Positions 37,653-44,218 of a stretch of DNA of 64,000 nt are shown in pieces. This stretch comes from a virus. A program made the translations under genes and the position numbers. The first letter of the stretch is position 1, and each line of letters opens with the position of its first letter. The stretch lies in the IMG/VR virus record IMGVR_UViG_3300042460_000692, positions 1 through 64,000 of that record; one strand, 5' to 3'. Below the pieces are notes generated by a model. That model had not been told where the DNA came from. It saw nothing but the letters and a program-made list of their open reading frames with translations, and did not search any database.

Positions 37653-40511
37653 ATGGCAAATTCAAACAGAGTATTCGTTTCTCCGGGTGTGTACACATCT
37701 GAGAAGGATCTAACATTCGTAGCACAAAGTGTCGGGGTTACAACTTTAGGTTTAGTAGGTGAGGCTTTAAAAGGTCCTGCTTTCGAACCTATTTTAGTTG
37801 GGGACTTCGACGAATTCAAAACGTATTTCGGACCAACTTCACCTGAGAAAGACGGTGCAAATAACCCTAAATATGAGTTAGCTTATATGGCTAAATCATA
37901 CTTACAAGAGTCTAATCAACTATTCGTAACAAGAATACTTGGTAAAACAGGATATAAACCAGGAAAAACTTATAGTATTAAAACTTTAGGTGGTGTAACA
38001 GTGGATTTAGTGTCTACACCTACATCAACAACAGGAATAACATTATCAGCAACAACCGCAACTATTACAGGTTCAACAATTTATGGTGAACTTTCAGGTA
38101 AAACGGCAACCAATGGTTCATCTGTAACAACATACATAACAAGTAAAACAGGTAAGAGTGGTGCGGCGTATGCAAATAACGATTGGTTTGTTATTGGTAA
38201 TGTACCAACTTCAGATACCTCAAGTTTAACAGGTACAAAACTTTTATCACCAATCGGTGAAAATGCTAATAAAAATTGGTATAATGCGTTCTTTACTAAA
38301 ACAGGGTCAGCCGACTCAACAATTGATGGTGTTTACTCTTATCTTTTTGTTTATTCTACAAGTACATCTTCATTTGATGTAACAAGATTTAAATACAGCG
38401 CATCACTTAACACAGATTATAGTGATGTAATTGTTGCTTCTTTAAGATCAAGAGGTGAATATAACGCTTCACAAAGTTTAGTATTACAAGTAACAGGAAC
38501 AACAGCAGTAACATTAACCGATGTTGGTGGTGTTACAACTAACCCAATGGCAGAATTTGCTTTAAATGTTACAGGTATTACGGGAGGAATTAAAACATTC
38601 AATTGTTCATTAGATATTTCATCAACAAAATATATAAATAAAGTATTAGGTACTGAAGTTTTTGATAAAGTAAAAGAAGATTATCCATTATATGTTAATG
38701 AAATATATTCTAACTTATTATTATCAGCATTTAGAAATGGATACGTAAGAGGTTTAAGTTTAGATGTATCATCAAACGTTGAAAGTGATAATTTTGCACA
38801 ATCATGGGATACTCCATCATCACCTACAGTTGTTTCTGAAGTTCGTGGTGGTAATGTTGCAGATTTATTCTCAATATTAACAATATCTGATGGAGACGCA
38901 GCAAATATTGAAGTTAAGGTTACAATTCAAAATATTAATTTAGATACTGCCGAATTTGATATTATGGTTCGTGATTTTAACGATACTGATGAAAATCAAA
39001 TTATATTAGAGAAATTTACAAGATGTTCAATGAATACTGACCTTCCAGGTTATGTGGCAAGAAAAGTTGGTACCTCTGATGGTGAATATGAATTACGTTC
39101 AAAGTTTATCATGTTAAATATGGCCGATAATGCACCTACGGACGCTTTCCCTGCTGGATTCAAAGGATTTACATCCTTACTTGTTTCAAGTAACAAATTA
39201 GGTAGTGTTCTTTACAAAACAGAATTTTTTGATGGTGGTGACGTGGTTTACTACGAATCGGATGGTTCTCAAGTATTATCTAACGGAGATAAAGTAAAGA
39301 AAGTCTCTTTAGGTTTATCATCTCAAAATGGTTTTAAATTTGATAGTGACTTGTTTAAATATAAAGGAAATGCGGCGTCTTCAAGTACATTCGGTTTCCA
39401 CTTATCAACAAACGCATCATCAATAACAGGAACAACATACCAAACAACACCTTATGATTTAGAAGGTCAATCTGGTACCGACAATAAATTAACCAACATA
39501 AACTTCCGTAAATTTACATTAGCGGTTTGTGGTGGATTTGATGGTTGGGATATATACAGAGAGACAAGAACTCTTGGTGACCAATTTATTTATGGTAAAA
39601 CAACATATAATACAGCTAATACCGATAATGGTGGTGTGTTCAATACAACCATAGGAAACTCTGATTATTATGCTTATTTAGAAGGTATTCAAACTTACTC
39701 AAATCCTGAGGCAATTGATATTAACGTATTCGCTACTGCAGGTATTAACTTCTACGATCATTCATCTTTAACAAGTCAAGCAATAGATATTATCGAGAAT
39801 GAAAGAGCCGATTCACTTTATATCATATCATCACCAAATGTTGATGATGCGGCAACCGTTACAGGTTACCTTGACGATTTAGGAATTGACTCTAACTATT
39901 CTGCAACATATTGGCCTTGGATTCAAGTAAGAGATACAGATAACGCAACTCAACTTTACATTCCACCAACAGGTGAGGTGTTGAAGAACATCGCGTTAAC
40001 TGATAACGTATCTTATCCTTGGTTCGCAGTTGCGGGTTATTCAAGAGGTTTGGTAAATGCAATTAAAGCTAAAAAGAAGTTAACTCTTGATGAAAGAGAC
40101 GAACTTTACAAAAATAGAATTAATCCAATCGCAACGTTCTCTGATACTGGTACAATTATTTGGGGTAACAAAACGTTACAAGTTAGAGAATCTGCACTTG
40201 ATAGAATCAACGTAAGAAGATTGTTGTTAAGAGCAAGAAAGTTAATTTCAGCAGTTGCTGTTAGATTGTTGTTCGAACAAAACGACGAACAAGTAAGACA
40301 AGAGTTCTTAAGATTGGTAAACCCAATTTTAGAATCAATTAAGAAAGAAAGAGGTCTTTATGAATTTAAAGTAAGTGTTTCAAGTGATGTTGAAGACATC
40401 GACGCTAACACTTTGAGAGGTAAAATTTACGTTAAACCTACTCGTTCTCTTGAATTTATTGATTTGGAATTCGTAATTACTCCAACAGGAGCTTCATTCG
40501 AGAATATCTAA
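37653..40511 (+). CDS. 18: Tail sheath protein, gp18
   Basis: Contractile sheath subunit. 952 residues (T4: 659). N-terminal NRVFVSPGVYTSEKDLTFVA and GLVGEALKGPAFEPILVGDF are the conserved sheath start. The C-terminal part (ALDRINVRRLLLRARKLISA, LRGKIYVKPTRSLEFIDLEF) is the conserved domain that locks the sheath onto the tube. The middle (about residues 100-520) is longer and Ser/Thr-rich, consistent with inserted surface domains. Terminated by a strong hairpin at 40535. Preceded by a late-type box. Confidence 0.95.
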   Translation: MANSNRVFVSPGVYTSEKDLTFVAQSVGVTTLGLVGEALKGPAFEPILVGDFDEFKTYFGPTSPEKDGANNPKYELAYMAKSYLQESNQLFVTRILGKTGYKPGKTYSIKTLGGVTVDLVSTPTSTTGITLSATTATITGSTIYGELSGKTATNGSSVTTYITSKTGKSGAAYANNDWFVIGNVPTSDTSSLTGTKLLSPIGENANKNWYNAFFTKTGSADSTIDGVYSYLFVYSTSTSSFDVTRFKYSASLNTDYSDVIVASLRSRGEYNASQSLVLQVTGTTAVTLTDVGGVTTNPMAEFALNVTGITGGIKTFNCSLDISSTKYINKVLGTEVFDKVKEDYPLYVNEIYSNLLLSAFRNGYVRGLSLDVSSNVESDNFAQSWDTPSSPTVVSEVRGGNVADLFSILTISDGDAANIEVKVTIQNINLDTAEFDIMVRDFNDTDENQIILEKFTRCSMNTDLPGYVARKVGTSDGEYELRSKFIMLNMADNAPTDAFPAGFKGFTSLLVSSNKLGSVLYKTEFFDGGDVVYYESDGSQVLSNGDKVKKVSLGLSSQNGFKFDSDLFKYKGNAASSSTFGFHLSTNASSITGTTYQTTPYDLEGQSGTDNKLTNINFRKFTLAVCGGFDGWDIYRETRTLGDQFIYGKTTYNTANTDNGGVFNTTIGNSDYYAYLEGIQTYSNPEAIDINVFATAGINFYDHSSLTSQAIDIIENERADSLYIISSPNVDDAATVTGYLDDLGIDSNYSATYWPWIQVRDTDNATQLYIPPTGEVLKNIALTDNVSYPWFAVAGYSRGLVNAIKAKKKLTLDERDELYKNRINPIATFSDTGTIIWGNKTLQVRESALDRINVRRLLLRARKLISAVAVRLLFEQNDEQVRQEFLRLVNPILESIKKERGLYEFKVSVSSDVEDIDANTLRGKIYVKPTRSLEFIDLEFVITPTGASFENI

Positions 40512-40534
40512 TCTAAAAGGAGGATATAAAAATA

Positions 40535-40564
40535 AAAAGGGAGGCCGAAAAGCTTCCCTTTTTT
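40535..40564 (+). terminator. Terminator after the sheath gene
   Basis: AAAAAGGGA (40535-40543) pairs with TCCCTTTTT (40556-40564), loop about 12 nt, T-run at the end, 24 nt after the sheath stop. Confidence 0.8.
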
Positions 40565-40613
40565 AATGCTCCACATGGAACCAATTATTATTAAAATTAT
40601 ATCATTTTATTTT

Positions 40614-40697
40614 ACCCAGTATAATCTGGAACTAGTTATACTAGTATTTATATGTTATATTATTAAACTAGAAATTTATTAATTATTTATACTGGGT
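40614..40697. other. 84-bp segment with 11-bp inverted ends in the sheath-tube gap
   Basis: ACCCAGTATAA at 40614-40624 and its exact complement TTATACTGGGT at 40687-40697 enclose A+T-rich sequence with two ACTAGT sites. It lies between the sheath terminator and the tube promoter region (gap 40512-40833, no convincing gene). Lacks the T-arm and D-arm bases of a tRNA. Could be a structured leader RNA or protein-binding site. Confidence 0.5.
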
Positions 40698-40833: not shown

Positions 40834-41322
40834 ATGGCAGATTTACTAATGAAAATGCCGGTTCCTTACGAACCGAAAAGACAGAACCGATTTATTGTAA
40901 GATTCCCATCTTCTTTGGGTATCAATGAATGGTATGTAACATCAGCGGCTAGACCATCCGCAAAAATCAACGCGACTGAAATTCCTTTTTTAAATACTTC
41001 AACATATGTTGCGGGTAAATTTAGTTGGGATACTATGAGGGTAACATTTAAAGACCCGATTGGTCCATCAGCGTCACAAGCGTTAATGGAGTGGTTCCGT
41101 TTACACGCTGAATCAGTTACTGGTCGTATGGGATATGCTGCCGGTTATAAAAAAGACATCGAACTTGAAATGTTAGACCCAACGGGAGTTGTTGTTGAAA
41201 AATGGATTCTTCAAGGAACATTTATTCAAGACATCAACTTTGGTGAATTAGACTATTCAAGAGATGAAATTGCAACTATCCAATGTACTTTACGTATGGA
41301 TAGATGTATACTTGTATTCTAA
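40834..41322 (+). CDS. 19: Tail tube protein, gp19
   Basis: Forms the inner tube. 162 residues (T4: 163). NRFIVRFPSSLGINEWYVTS, the conserved SRP-like ARPSAKINATEIPF, WDTMRVTFKDPIGPSASQAL, and the C-terminal INFGELDYSRDEIATIQCTL, RMDRCILVF are the T4 tube pattern. Followed by a terminator at 41344. High confidence. Confidence 0.95.
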   Translation: MADLLMKMPVPYEPKRQNRFIVRFPSSLGINEWYVTSAARPSAKINATEIPFLNTSTYVAGKFSWDTMRVTFKDPIGPSASQALMEWFRLHAESVTGRMGYAAGYKKDIELEMLDPTGVVVEKWILQGTFIQDINFGELDYSRDEIATIQCTLRMDRCILVF

Positions 41323-41343: not shown

Positions 41344-41378
41344 AAACCGATATACCAGAAATGGGTATCGGTTTTTTT
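41344..41378 (+). terminator. Terminator after the tube gene
   Basis: AAACCGATA (41344-41352) pairs with TATCGGTTT (41366-41374), inner TACC/GGGTA pairing, then a T-run to 41378. Confidence 0.8.
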
Positions 41379-41423: not shown

Positions 41424-42173
41424 ATGGAAGAATTAAGAATTGACCCAAGAATCGCATATGATGTTGTGGAGTTACCAAGTAGAGGTATCCATTATCAAAA
41501 TGGTAAGAAATCACTAAGAATAGCTTACCTAACTGCCGCGGATGAAAATATATTAGCATCCCCAAATTTAATACAGACAAATGCTATAGTTAATGAACTA
41601 TTAAAAAGAAAAGTATTAGACAAAGACTTATCAACCGAAGATTTGGTTGAAGAAGATAAGGAGGCTATTTTAATATTTTTAAGAAATACCGCATTTGGTT
41701 CAGAATATAAAGTTACATTAACCGACCCAAAAACAAACGAAGATTTTGAGGTTCAAATAGATTTAAGTAGTTTAGATTTTAAACCATTTACATTAGTTGC
41801 AGATTCTAACGGAGAATATTCATATTTTATGAATAAATCCAAAGTAGACGTAACATTTAAGTTTTTAACCCAAAAACAAGAAAACGACATAAAAGAAATT
41901 GCAAAGAGTTGGAATGGTAATGGAATAGCTCCAATTATTACAAAACAACTCGAAGGTATGATTAAATCCGTGGCTGGAGTTAATGACCCAATGAACACAA
42001 GAAATTTCATTGAGAATATGCCGATTAAAGATTCACAAGATTTTAGAAAATACGTATCTGACAATAAGCCAGGAATTGACCTAACACAAACAGCAAATAC
42101 CCCATCAGGAGAAGAGATCCAATTTAGAATTGGGTTTGGGGTTGACTTTTTTCGCCCTTTCTACGGAATATAA
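41424..42173 (+). CDS. 26: gp26-like baseplate/tail assembly protein
   Basis: 249 residues from ATG 41424 (MEELRIDPRIAYDVVELPSR). A longer in-frame reading from 41361 starts inside the tube terminator and is rejected. ELPSRGIHYQ, SLRIAYLTAADENILASPNL and IFLRNTAFGSEYKVTLT fit the T4 gp26 family (Pfam T4_baseplate pattern, from memory). It lies exactly where tail assembly chaperones lie: after the tube gene and before the tape measure. A short frame reading past its 3' end (42142-42303) may be a +1 frameshift extension. Confidence 0.75.
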   Translation: MEELRIDPRIAYDVVELPSRGIHYQNGKKSLRIAYLTAADENILASPNLIQTNAIVNELLKRKVLDKDLSTEDLVEEDKEAILIFLRNTAFGSEYKVTLTDPKTNEDFEVQIDLSSLDFKPFTLVADSNGEYSYFMNKSKVDVTFKFLTQKQENDIKEIAKSWNGNGIAPIITKQLEGMIKSVAGVNDPMNTRNFIENMPIKDSQDFRKYVSDNKPGIDLTQTANTPSGEEIQFRIGFGVDFFRPFYGI

Positions 42174-42303
42174 GAAAAATCAATTATCGGAAATTCACTA
42201 CCTAATCAGGAAAGGATTCTCATATGGAGACATTTTAACTATGCCTGTCTATATTAGACGATATTATATTGGTTATATAATGGAGTTGGAAAACACACAA
42301 TAA
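42142..42303 (+). CDS. gp51-like / tail-chaperone extension frame (start uncertain)
   Basis: A frame open from 42085 to the stop at 42301-42303, +1 relative to the gp26-like gene. It encodes LSTEYKKNQLSEIHYLIRKG then FSYGDILTMPVYIRRYYIGY then IMELENTQ. The MPVYIRRYY element is typical of the small gp51/chaperone partner. There is no ATG before its core; TTG codons at 42130, 42136 and 42142 are possible starts. Alternatively a +1 slip at TTTTTTC (42147-42153) would fuse it to the gp26-like protein as a roughly 292-residue product. T4 has genes 26 and 51 adjacent in the same order. It is followed 13 nt later by the tape measure start. Confidence 0.6.
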   Translation: MTFFALSTEYKKNQLSEIHYLIRKGFSYGDILTMPVYIRRYYIGYIMELENTQ

Positions 42304-42316: not shown

Positions 42317-44218
42317 ATGGCAAAATATAGCACAACAGATTTAGAGAAGGCAGGGTCGGATGGAAACTGGCCAAGGTTTTTAACAATTTATAAAGATTTA
42401 TACCCACCATCGAATTCTAATAGTGAGAGTGAACTAAATTCATTACAATCAAGAGCTAAAATTGAATATGAATCGTATTCAAGTGGTCAAAAAAAAGGAA
42501 CCAGTACAACCAAAGGAGCGAAATCATTCATTGAGGCAGCCAGTGGAATTTTAAAAGGACAAGAAGGTGGTGGACATTATAAAGATATTAAGGACTCGGT
42601 TAATTCAACGGAGCTTTTGTCTATGGCATCAAAAGACGGAAAAATTTTACCAGCAGACCAAATTGCACAAAACGTATTCAAGGCTGGATTAGAACAGATC
42701 GGTGATGAATATAATAATCAAAGAAAGTTATTAGAAGACATCAACACCAAAACCGGTTTAACGGGTGCACTATCAAAAGATTTTAGGGAAGAAATATCAA
42801 ACGCAGGACCAAAATTAGCACAATTAGGTATATCATTTGAAACATTAGCGGGAGTTGCTCAAGGTTTAGTGGAAAAGTCTGGTAAATTTAATTTAATAAA
42901 TCAACAATCATTTGAACAGGCGGCAGTGGTTGGTCAAGCATACCTTGGTTCAATGGAAGCATTAACCAACATGTTACCTGATTTTGAAAAAGTAGGTATA
43001 GGGGCTAAAGGTACGTTCGATGCAGTTGAAAAAGCGGGAAAAAGCTCACTAACTTTAGGACTAAATTCACAAAGAGTTTCAAAAGATTTAGCAACAAATA
43101 TAGGTAAGTTAAACGAATACGGATTCCAAAAAGGAGTTGAGGGTTTAGCTAGAATGGTTCAAAAATCTATTGAATTTAGATTAAGTATGGATGCGGTTTC
43201 ACAAGTTGCCGAAAAAGTATTTAGTCCAGAAAGTGCATTAGAGTTATCAGCTAACTTACAAGTATTAGGTGGTGCCATTGGAGATTTCAATGACCCACTT
43301 AAATTAATGTATATGGCAACGAATAATGTTGAAGGATTACAAGATTCAATTATTAATGCTGCAAGTAGTTTAGCCACATACAACCAAGAACAAGGAAGAT
43401 TTGAAGTTACAGGTGTTAACTTAAGAAAAGTAAGAGAGATGGCTACCGCATTAGGTATGGACTATAAGGAACTTACAAAGACCGCAGTTGCGGCACAAGA
43501 AAGATTAAGCGCAAAAGAAATGTTATCTGGTTTAAGAATTGAAGATGAGGATAAAGAATTCTTAACTAACATGTCTCAGATGAAAAATGGTAAAATGACC
43601 ATTGAATTACAATCTGAAAAAATGAGAGACCTTTTTGGTGGAGCACAGGAGGTAGCGTTAGATACTTTAGATAAGAACCAAGCCGAATTATTGTTAAAAT
43701 ATAAAGATGAATTTAAAAAATTAGAGGCAGATGATATTGTAAGAGGACAAGCTTCAGATATTGAAAATATTAGACGAGATGTTTCATTTTTAGTTAAATC
43801 GATTGCGTTAACAGGAACAAGAGAGGTTAAAGAGTTGGCGGATAAAATGGGAATTGATATGAAAAAATTCGCAGAAACAACAAAAGAAGCACTCCCAAAA
43901 GCCGCCACTTTAATTAATAATGAAATAAAAGGTATTATTACACCTGATAATAAACAAACAGGTAAAGTTGAAACACCAAAAAATGCAATAACAAAAGAAG
44001 AGGCAACAAAAATTGCAGAAGAAGAAGCTAAAAAACAAAAAGAATCGTCAACTCAAACAGACAAAAATGTTAAAGTAACAAACGAATATGTATTCAAAGG
44101 TGGTGACGCTTTAGTTGATGGATGGATGAGAGAAGTGGGTAAAAATTCAAGTATCTATAATGACTTCCATACAGTAGATACTCAATCGTATACCACACCA
44201 TCGACAGCTAAAAGATAA
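42317..44218 (+). CDS. Tape-measure-like protein
   Basis: 633 residues, helical, with the Ala/Gly/Leu/Lys pattern of tail tape measures: ISNAGPKLAQLGISFETLAG, GIGAKGTFDAVEKAGKSSLT, EYGFQKGVEGLARMVQKSIE, SPESALELSANLQVLGGAIG. T4 gp29, the hub tape measure, has 590 residues, so length fits. The C-terminus becomes polar and Lys/Gln/Thr-rich. It follows the gp26/gp51-like pair, the standard chaperone-tape measure order. Confidence 0.72.
   Translation: MAKYSTTDLEKAGSDGNWPRFLTIYKDLYPPSNSNSESELNSLQSRAKIEYESYSSGQKKGTSTTKGAKSFIEAASGILKGQEGGGHYKDIKDSVNSTELLSMASKDGKILPADQIAQNVFKAGLEQIGDEYNNQRKLLEDINTKTGLTGALSKDFREEISNAGPKLAQLGISFETLAGVAQGLVEKSGKFNLINQQSFEQAAVVGQAYLGSMEALTNMLPDFEKVGIGAKGTFDAVEKAGKSSLTLGLNSQRVSKDLATNIGKLNEYGFQKGVEGLARMVQKSIEFRLSMDAVSQVAEKVFSPESALELSANLQVLGGAIGDFNDPLKLMYMATNNVEGLQDSIINAASSLATYNQEQGRFEVTGVNLRKVREMATALGMDYKELTKTAVAAQERLSAKEMLSGLRIEDEDKEFLTNMSQMKNGKMTIELQSEKMRDLFGGAQEVALDTLDKNQAELLLKYKDEFKKLEADDIVRGQASDIENIRRDVSFLVKSIALTGTREVKELADKMGIDMKKFAETTKEALPKAATLINNEIKGIITPDNKQTGKVETPKNAITKEEATKIAEEEAKKQKESSTQTDKNVKVTNEYVFKGGDALVDGWMREVGKNSSIYNDFHTVDTQSYTTPSTAKR

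Follow-up and report, generated by a model that had tools for sequence, protein, structure and literature searches.

The locus studied here raises the question of whether a phage tail gene makes one protein or two. It lies in a stretch of DNA of 64,000 nucleotides (positions 1-64,000 of IMG/VR virus record IMGVR_UViG_3300042460_000692, one strand), which was analysed as a whole and is called the window below. In it, the 3' end of an open reading frame (ORF) resembling T4 gp26, here called ORF1, overlaps a second frame in the +1 register. A sequence-only reading of the window had described this hidden frame, its end at 42303 and its overlap with the gp26-like gene, and had proposed that a +1 frameshift joins the pair. 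Our sequence check bore out the layout, and the proposed shift is strongly supported by the phase of the frames, the invariance of the site and the absence of a start. On these comparisons we consider it very probable that the locus is a tail-assembly chaperone (TAC) gene with a programmed +1 ribosomal frameshift at UUU_CGN, which would yield a short and a long product. The elements concerned are the following, with P and A standing for the peptidyl and aminoacyl sites of the ribosome and pN/pS for the ratio of nonsynonymous to synonymous changes.

41424..42173, plus strand: ORF1, gp26-like short tail-assembly chaperone (TAC-N), 249 amino acids, C-terminus ...GVDFFRPFYGI, assigned by PF12322 and phrog_150
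42085..42303, plus strand: complete open +1 frame, from the sequence check, with stop TAA at 42301-42303
42138..42141, plus strand: GGGG at -12 to -9 from the slipping codon, a possible Shine-Dalgarno-like stimulator, as conservation and codon usage suggest
42147..42155, plus strand: putative shift site TTT-TTT-CGC, with P-site TTT (42150-42152) moving to TTC (42151-42153) and CGC (42153-42155) in the A site
42154..42303, plus strand: +1-frame extension (TAC-C, gp51-like), 49 amino acids plus TAA, supported by pN/pS, structure prediction and a gp51 profile match
42171..42173, plus strand: zero-frame (ORF1) stop TAA, 18 nucleotides past the slipping codon (12 or 18 in core relatives)

A conserved second frame at the end of ORF1

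ORF1 belongs to the PF12322 family (E 2.7e-8; 34.2 bits against a curated cut-off of 24.5), and phrog_150 matched both ORF1 (E 6.4e-10) and its fusion with the extension (E 1.4e-11). The structures of ORF1 and of the extension frame, ORF2, were predicted separately. The AlphaFold2 model of ORF1 had a predicted local distance difference test (pLDDT) score of 86.6, and its BFVD matches were baseplate hub/gp26 proteins; the extension alone was predicted to form three helices (pLDDT 93). The open +1 frame encodes ...EIHYLIRKGFSYGDILTMPVYIRRYYIGYIMELENTQ, of which EIHYLIRKGFSYGDILTMPVYIRRYYIGYIMEL lies past the ORF1 stop, and the fusion product would be 292 amino acids long compared with 249 for the short form.

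We compared this arrangement with 107 relatives in IMG/VR, comprising 27 close loci found with ORF1 as query and 80 wider ones found with an alignment as query, with at least one contig present twice. Every one of the 107 carries a homologous extension in the +1 frame that overlaps the end of ORF1. Codons and stops were counted in 69 diverged representatives with less than 85% ORF1 identity. Over the 32 codons past the ORF1 stop, the extension frame was open in all 69, while the other two frames contained stops in 69 and 67 of them. In the same codons pN/pS, computed from 16 core relatives, was 0.41 for the extension frame and 1.07 and 1.49 for the others. These substitution patterns indicate purifying selection on the extension frame. 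Within ORF1 itself, synonymous conservation was highest at codons 242-249.

Deposited annotations of relatives (L028, L029, L030, L127, L129, L130, L136, L138-L143) enter the extension as a small 'hypothetical protein' of its own, in most cases truncated; one of them (L141) labels it 'baseplate hub assembly catalyst', and in LIS04 (L124) and RaK2 (L137) it is unannotated. For a large and mainly uncultured group of phages with contractile tails, recognizing the fused frame fills a gap in the annotation, the long chaperone having been overlooked or entered as a truncated small ORF.

An invariant UUU_CGN at the crossing

The crossing reads GGG-GTT-GAC-TTT-TTT-CGC-CCT-TTC-TAC-GGA-ATA-TAA, and TTT-TTT-C was correctly placed at 42147-42153 in the sequence-only reading, which took it for the slippery site and suggested its conservation in relatives as a check. 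The check held, in that the +1 phase was kept in 107 of 107 loci; two of them read TTT-TTT-TGG and a few TTC-TTT-CGN. The conserved site thus stood, but its key element proved to be UUU_CGN and not the run of six T. All 69 representatives have TTT as their second Phe codon, and the Arg codon that follows is CGN in 67 of the 67 that have Arg there, the remaining two having TGG. On the tree, codon 243 never switches between TTT and TTC, compared with 8-13 switches at other conserved upstream Phe codons. Two other conserved Arg codons are AGR in 54/59 and 67/69 sequences. Across the ORF1s, TTT accounts for 74% of Phe, AGA for 73% of Arg and GGG for 15% of Gly codons, and CGN makes up 22% of Arg codons in the window ORFs. 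Among the 19,321 codons of those ORFs, in-frame TTT-CGN was found once, at the shift site, against 5.3 occurrences expected overall. Since any third base is allowed in CGN, the residue encoded there in the +1 frame varies (A, V, G or D); it is UUU_CG that is conserved, not the residue. Upstream, GGGG occupies -12 to -9 in 62/69 representatives, and the Gly that stands three codons ahead of the Phe pair is encoded by GGG in 64 of 68, compared with 6.9% of Gly codons in the window ORFs.

We infer the slip itself, and its rate, from this pattern. Most ribosomes would terminate at the ORF1 stop and release the short form of 249 amino acids. A minority would stall when the A site holds CGC, a rare Arg codon, and tRNA-Phe sits on the P-site UUU (42150-42152). 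This tRNA would then slip one base forward onto UUC, with which its GAA anticodon pairs better, and reading would resume at GCC-CUU-UCU... for 49 codons, giving the 292-residue long form (...GVDFF-ALSTEYK...) and a predicted trans-frame peptide GFGVDFFALSTEYK. The GGGG may act as an internal Shine-Dalgarno-like pause. By analogy with lambda gpG/gpGT, both forms would cover the tape measure protein, with tube subunits recruited by the extension.

Several observations weigh against this mechanism. The GGGG is missing in some relatives (such as L054, L056 and L057), and no downstream stimulatory RNA structure was found at the shift site: folding returned a single hairpin that spans the site itself, without covariation and of ordinary stability (z +0.7), and an Rfam search gave no credible match. 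The rarity of CGN is that of phage codon usage, which may not mirror the tRNA pool of the host. Some distant +1 sites also deviate from UUU_C (UUU_A in LIS04, CUU_U in immuto, UUU_U in Mel-JY01). The window contained no tRNA genes, and hence no tRNA-Arg of the phage's own that might affect the argument from a slow codon.

Homologues cross in +1 or in -1 at the same Phe-Phe

In the wider family, the frame crossing at the Phe-Phe pair occurs in +1 in immuto, Mel-JY01, SP-15, LIS04, GXN1 and Psa3, with a less clear site in LR756508. It occurs in -1 in Atu_ph07, PA5oct, XacN1, RAS14, 121Q, RaK2, Munch, Vibrio 2.275.O, SCTP-2, XaC1, CBB, LR756511 and cyanophage S-RS29. The -1 shift site of these homologues, in jumbo phages and a cyanophage, is U_UUU_UUC. 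The octamer TTTTTTCG is common to many of the -1 sites and to the +1 sites of the window's group, in a different phase. This natural series of +1 and -1 sites within one protein family offers a testbed for what determines the direction of a frameshift. A diverged case is Pseudomonas phage QdP_Psa3 (L131, 2929-3808), which falls below the phrog_150 threshold and has a TTC-TTT-CCC-TAA crossing with a +1 extension; the slip there could take place at UUU_C or at CCC_U.

The cyanophage homologue bears on an older observation. Sullivan et al. (2010; PMC3037559) remarked that about 200 residues are missing from the N-terminus of cyanophage gp51. In S-RS29, the 46-residue product annotated as 'baseplate hub assembly catalyst' begins at an ATG within the -1 extension and corresponds to its tail, and phrog_634 links it to the C-terminus of T4 gp51. 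The short cyanophage 'gp51' of 2010 is thereby accounted for, in S-RS29, as the tail of a -1 extension.

Alternatives to a +1 ribosomal shift

If ORF2 were a separate small gene, it would have to begin at a TTG (42130, 42136 or 42142) or be reached by termination-reinitiation. The TTG start had been offered in the sequence-only reading as the other option, together with the statement that the frame has no ATG. That statement did not hold as worded, as ATGs are present at 42241 and later, but only inside the conserved domain, and beginning at the first of them would cost most of that domain. Upstream of the shift site, the window's +1 frame offers TTGs as its only possible starts, and three of them lie just 5' of the site; separate small ORFs are moreover annotated in Mel-JY01, SP-15, immuto and others. 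However, the TTG at -6 is a mere by-product of TTT-GGG, and in 11/69 representatives a +1-frame stop lies two codons 5' of the site, after that TTG. These stops just before the site exclude the TTG start. They also provide a natural experiment against upstream initiation, in which Val codons GTA (GTA-GAN; L026, L039, L048 and others) create a +1-frame TAG before the site. In a survey of 86 distinct junctions, 15 had no upstream start of any kind, and 13 had no ATG, GTG or TTG either upstream or in the first 12 codons past the site. Of the 13 homologues with a -1 shift, 12 likewise lack a start upstream of the shift site. Since a separate start would also leave the invariant TTT-CGN unexplained, we judge a separate gene, by either route, to be very improbable.

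Two other routes would lead to the same final frame. Transcriptional slippage at the six T would remove one U from the mRNA and fuse ORF1 to ORF2 in some transcripts; a run of six T does precede the junction, and the same fused product would be expected. A -2 ribosomal shift would end in the same frame as +1, and the T run permits the re-pairing. Both become less likely because the layout is kept where the run is interrupted (TTC-TTT-CGN in L008, L016, L043, L111, L112 and Streptococcus phage GXN1), so that six T are not required. Transcriptional slippage would further leave CGN unexplained, and six T are short for slippage by bacterial polymerase; we rate it as improbable as a separate gene. 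After a -2 shift the codon would be TCT, mispaired in the TTC-TTT-CGN relatives, and the C of CGN would not be needed, which makes this route slightly less credible still. An indel from sequencing or assembly, or decay of the C-terminus, could be imagined for a single contig taken alone, with no tool result in its favour. It is already contradicted by the phase common to 107 loci from many metagenomes and by purifying selection on the extension, and its probability is negligible. The canonical -1 class, X_XXY_YYZ, does not apply, as the downstream frame is +1 and not -1.

Relation to T4 gp26 and gp51

A 2022 study of T4-like chaperones reportedly found that T4 itself uses separate genes 26 and 51. 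The T4 gene content and the PF12322 matches, which include both gp26 and gp51, were consistent with this. By profile comparison, the fusion predicted from the +1 shift matched gp26 (E 4e-9) with an alignment that stops at the Phe-Phe pair, and gp51 (E 9e-6) with an alignment that continues through the extension. The comparison was not significant when limited to core relatives and reached significance once distant homologues were added. The extension profile alone matched the gp51 C-terminus (E 1.7e-5, score 28.4), while 100 column shuffles scored at most 15.3. The short form is thus homologous to T4 gp26 and the long form to gp51, and the gp51-like label that the hidden frame had been given fits: it matches the C-terminal extension, after VFKLL, that is present in T4 gp51 and absent from T4 gp26. 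It had also been said that T4 has genes 26 and 51 in the same place. They are indeed adjacent, but they lie on opposite strands and are paralogues, not a pair that could be joined.

T4 and four relatives each carry two phrog_150 genes, and the 28 frameshift-type records with a match carry one each; several of these records may be fragments. The record G000 (77 kb, possibly a fragment) has one phrog_150 gene, and a separate full-length gp51-type paralogue was not found in it. Psa3 had no phrog_150 match.

Comparison with known frameshift systems

Bacterial release factor 2 (RF2, prfB) is made by a +1 slip in the P site, with a slowly decoded A-site codon and a G-rich stretch upstream. At the present locus, the GGGG lies eight bases away and its pairing with 16S ribosomal RNA is putative. 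Another likeness is to a class known from eukaryotic RNA viruses. A P-site UUU_C slip was modelled for influenza A PA-X by authors who predicted a UUU_C class with CGN preferred (PMC3498833), and plant amalgaviruses use UUU_CGN (PMC5052127). With its conserved UUU in the putative P site and CGN in the A site, the window's site fits this class; it would share the UUU_C to UUC slip, and it shares the rare A-site CGN and the lack of an evident downstream structure. It differs in being found in a DNA phage read by bacterial ribosomes, with a conserved GGGG upstream. If the mechanism is true, the UUU_CGN class extends from eukaryotic viruses to bacteria.

Among tail-assembly chaperones, lambda gpG/gpGT provides a short and a long form from two frames that overlap ahead of the tape measure gene, and a 2016 review described G-T frameshifting as widely conserved 'except T4' (both PMC5009743). 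The layout is alike, but lambda shifts by -1 at a different slippery site, and the likeness seen so far is one of layout. The best PDB match in a fold search was the HK97 tail assembly chaperone 2ob9, which was not significant (E 1.9, probability 0.30). T4-like chaperones were identified by Vladimirov, Gautam and Davidson (2022; Virology 566:9-15), as cited in PMC10274946 and PMC12846349, and the latter credits them with -1 shift signals of the poly-T type in the TAC-N genes of T4-like phages. The window's locus would share with this TAC-N/TAC-NC scheme the short and long forms and a T-rich site at the end of TAC-N, with a second frame that is conserved, overlapping and startless behind a conserved slippery site. 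The credited signals, however, are -1 poly-T, while the shift proposed here is +1 at UUU_CGN.

The short/long chaperone scheme in T4-like phages is already published (2022), and the relation between T4 gp26 and gp51, once considered as a new finding, was dropped when that paper was found cited. No account of a +1 UUU_CGN shift in the chaperone family or in any bacterial virus was found in a search that left subscription papers mostly outside. A UUU_CGN +1 class in a bacterial virus appears to be new, and so does the finding that homologues shift in different directions at one and the same Phe-Phe, the 2022 work having been compared through papers that cite it. For the joint claim we lean towards acceptance with some reserve: that this would be the first known UUU_CGN +1 shift by bacterial ribosomes, with a rare Arg codon in the A site and GGGG as its stimulators, and that one family has switched between -1 (U_UUU_UUC_G) and +1 (UUU_UUU_CG) at a single Phe-Phe, in many cases with a shared octamer read in different phase.

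Neighbouring genes and the start of ORF1

The gene order sheath, tube, ORF1 is that expected for a tail-assembly chaperone gene between tube and tape measure.

37653..40511, plus strand: tail sheath protein (PF04984, PF17482, phrog_23)
40834..41322, plus strand: tail tube protein, the upstream neighbour (phrog_4542, E 1.1e-28; phrog_45)
41344..41374, plus strand: terminator-like hairpin in the gap between tube gene and ORF1 (-14.6 kcal/mol, z -4.0, T run after it)
42317..44218, plus strand: downstream gene of 633 amino acids in the tape-measure position, its identity suggested by position

The product of 42317-44218 had no family match and no significant match to the tape measure protein of immuto; the gene in this position is annotated as tape measure in immuto and LIS04. 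The mechanical start of ORF1 was 41361, and from the alignments the true start is probably 41424. Relative L017 has a stop within the ORF1 frame of the longer version, and L018 and L025 align to ORF1 only from residue 22 onward. The ATG at 41361 sits inside the terminator-like hairpin, which also favours 41424. Partial termination at 41344-41374 could reduce the chaperone relative to the tube. Weak, sub-threshold Rfam matches (MicX, sraA) at 40492-40653, in the sheath terminator region, are probably due to chance. A second strong terminator-like hairpin with a T run lies at 40534-40561, 3' of the sheath gene.
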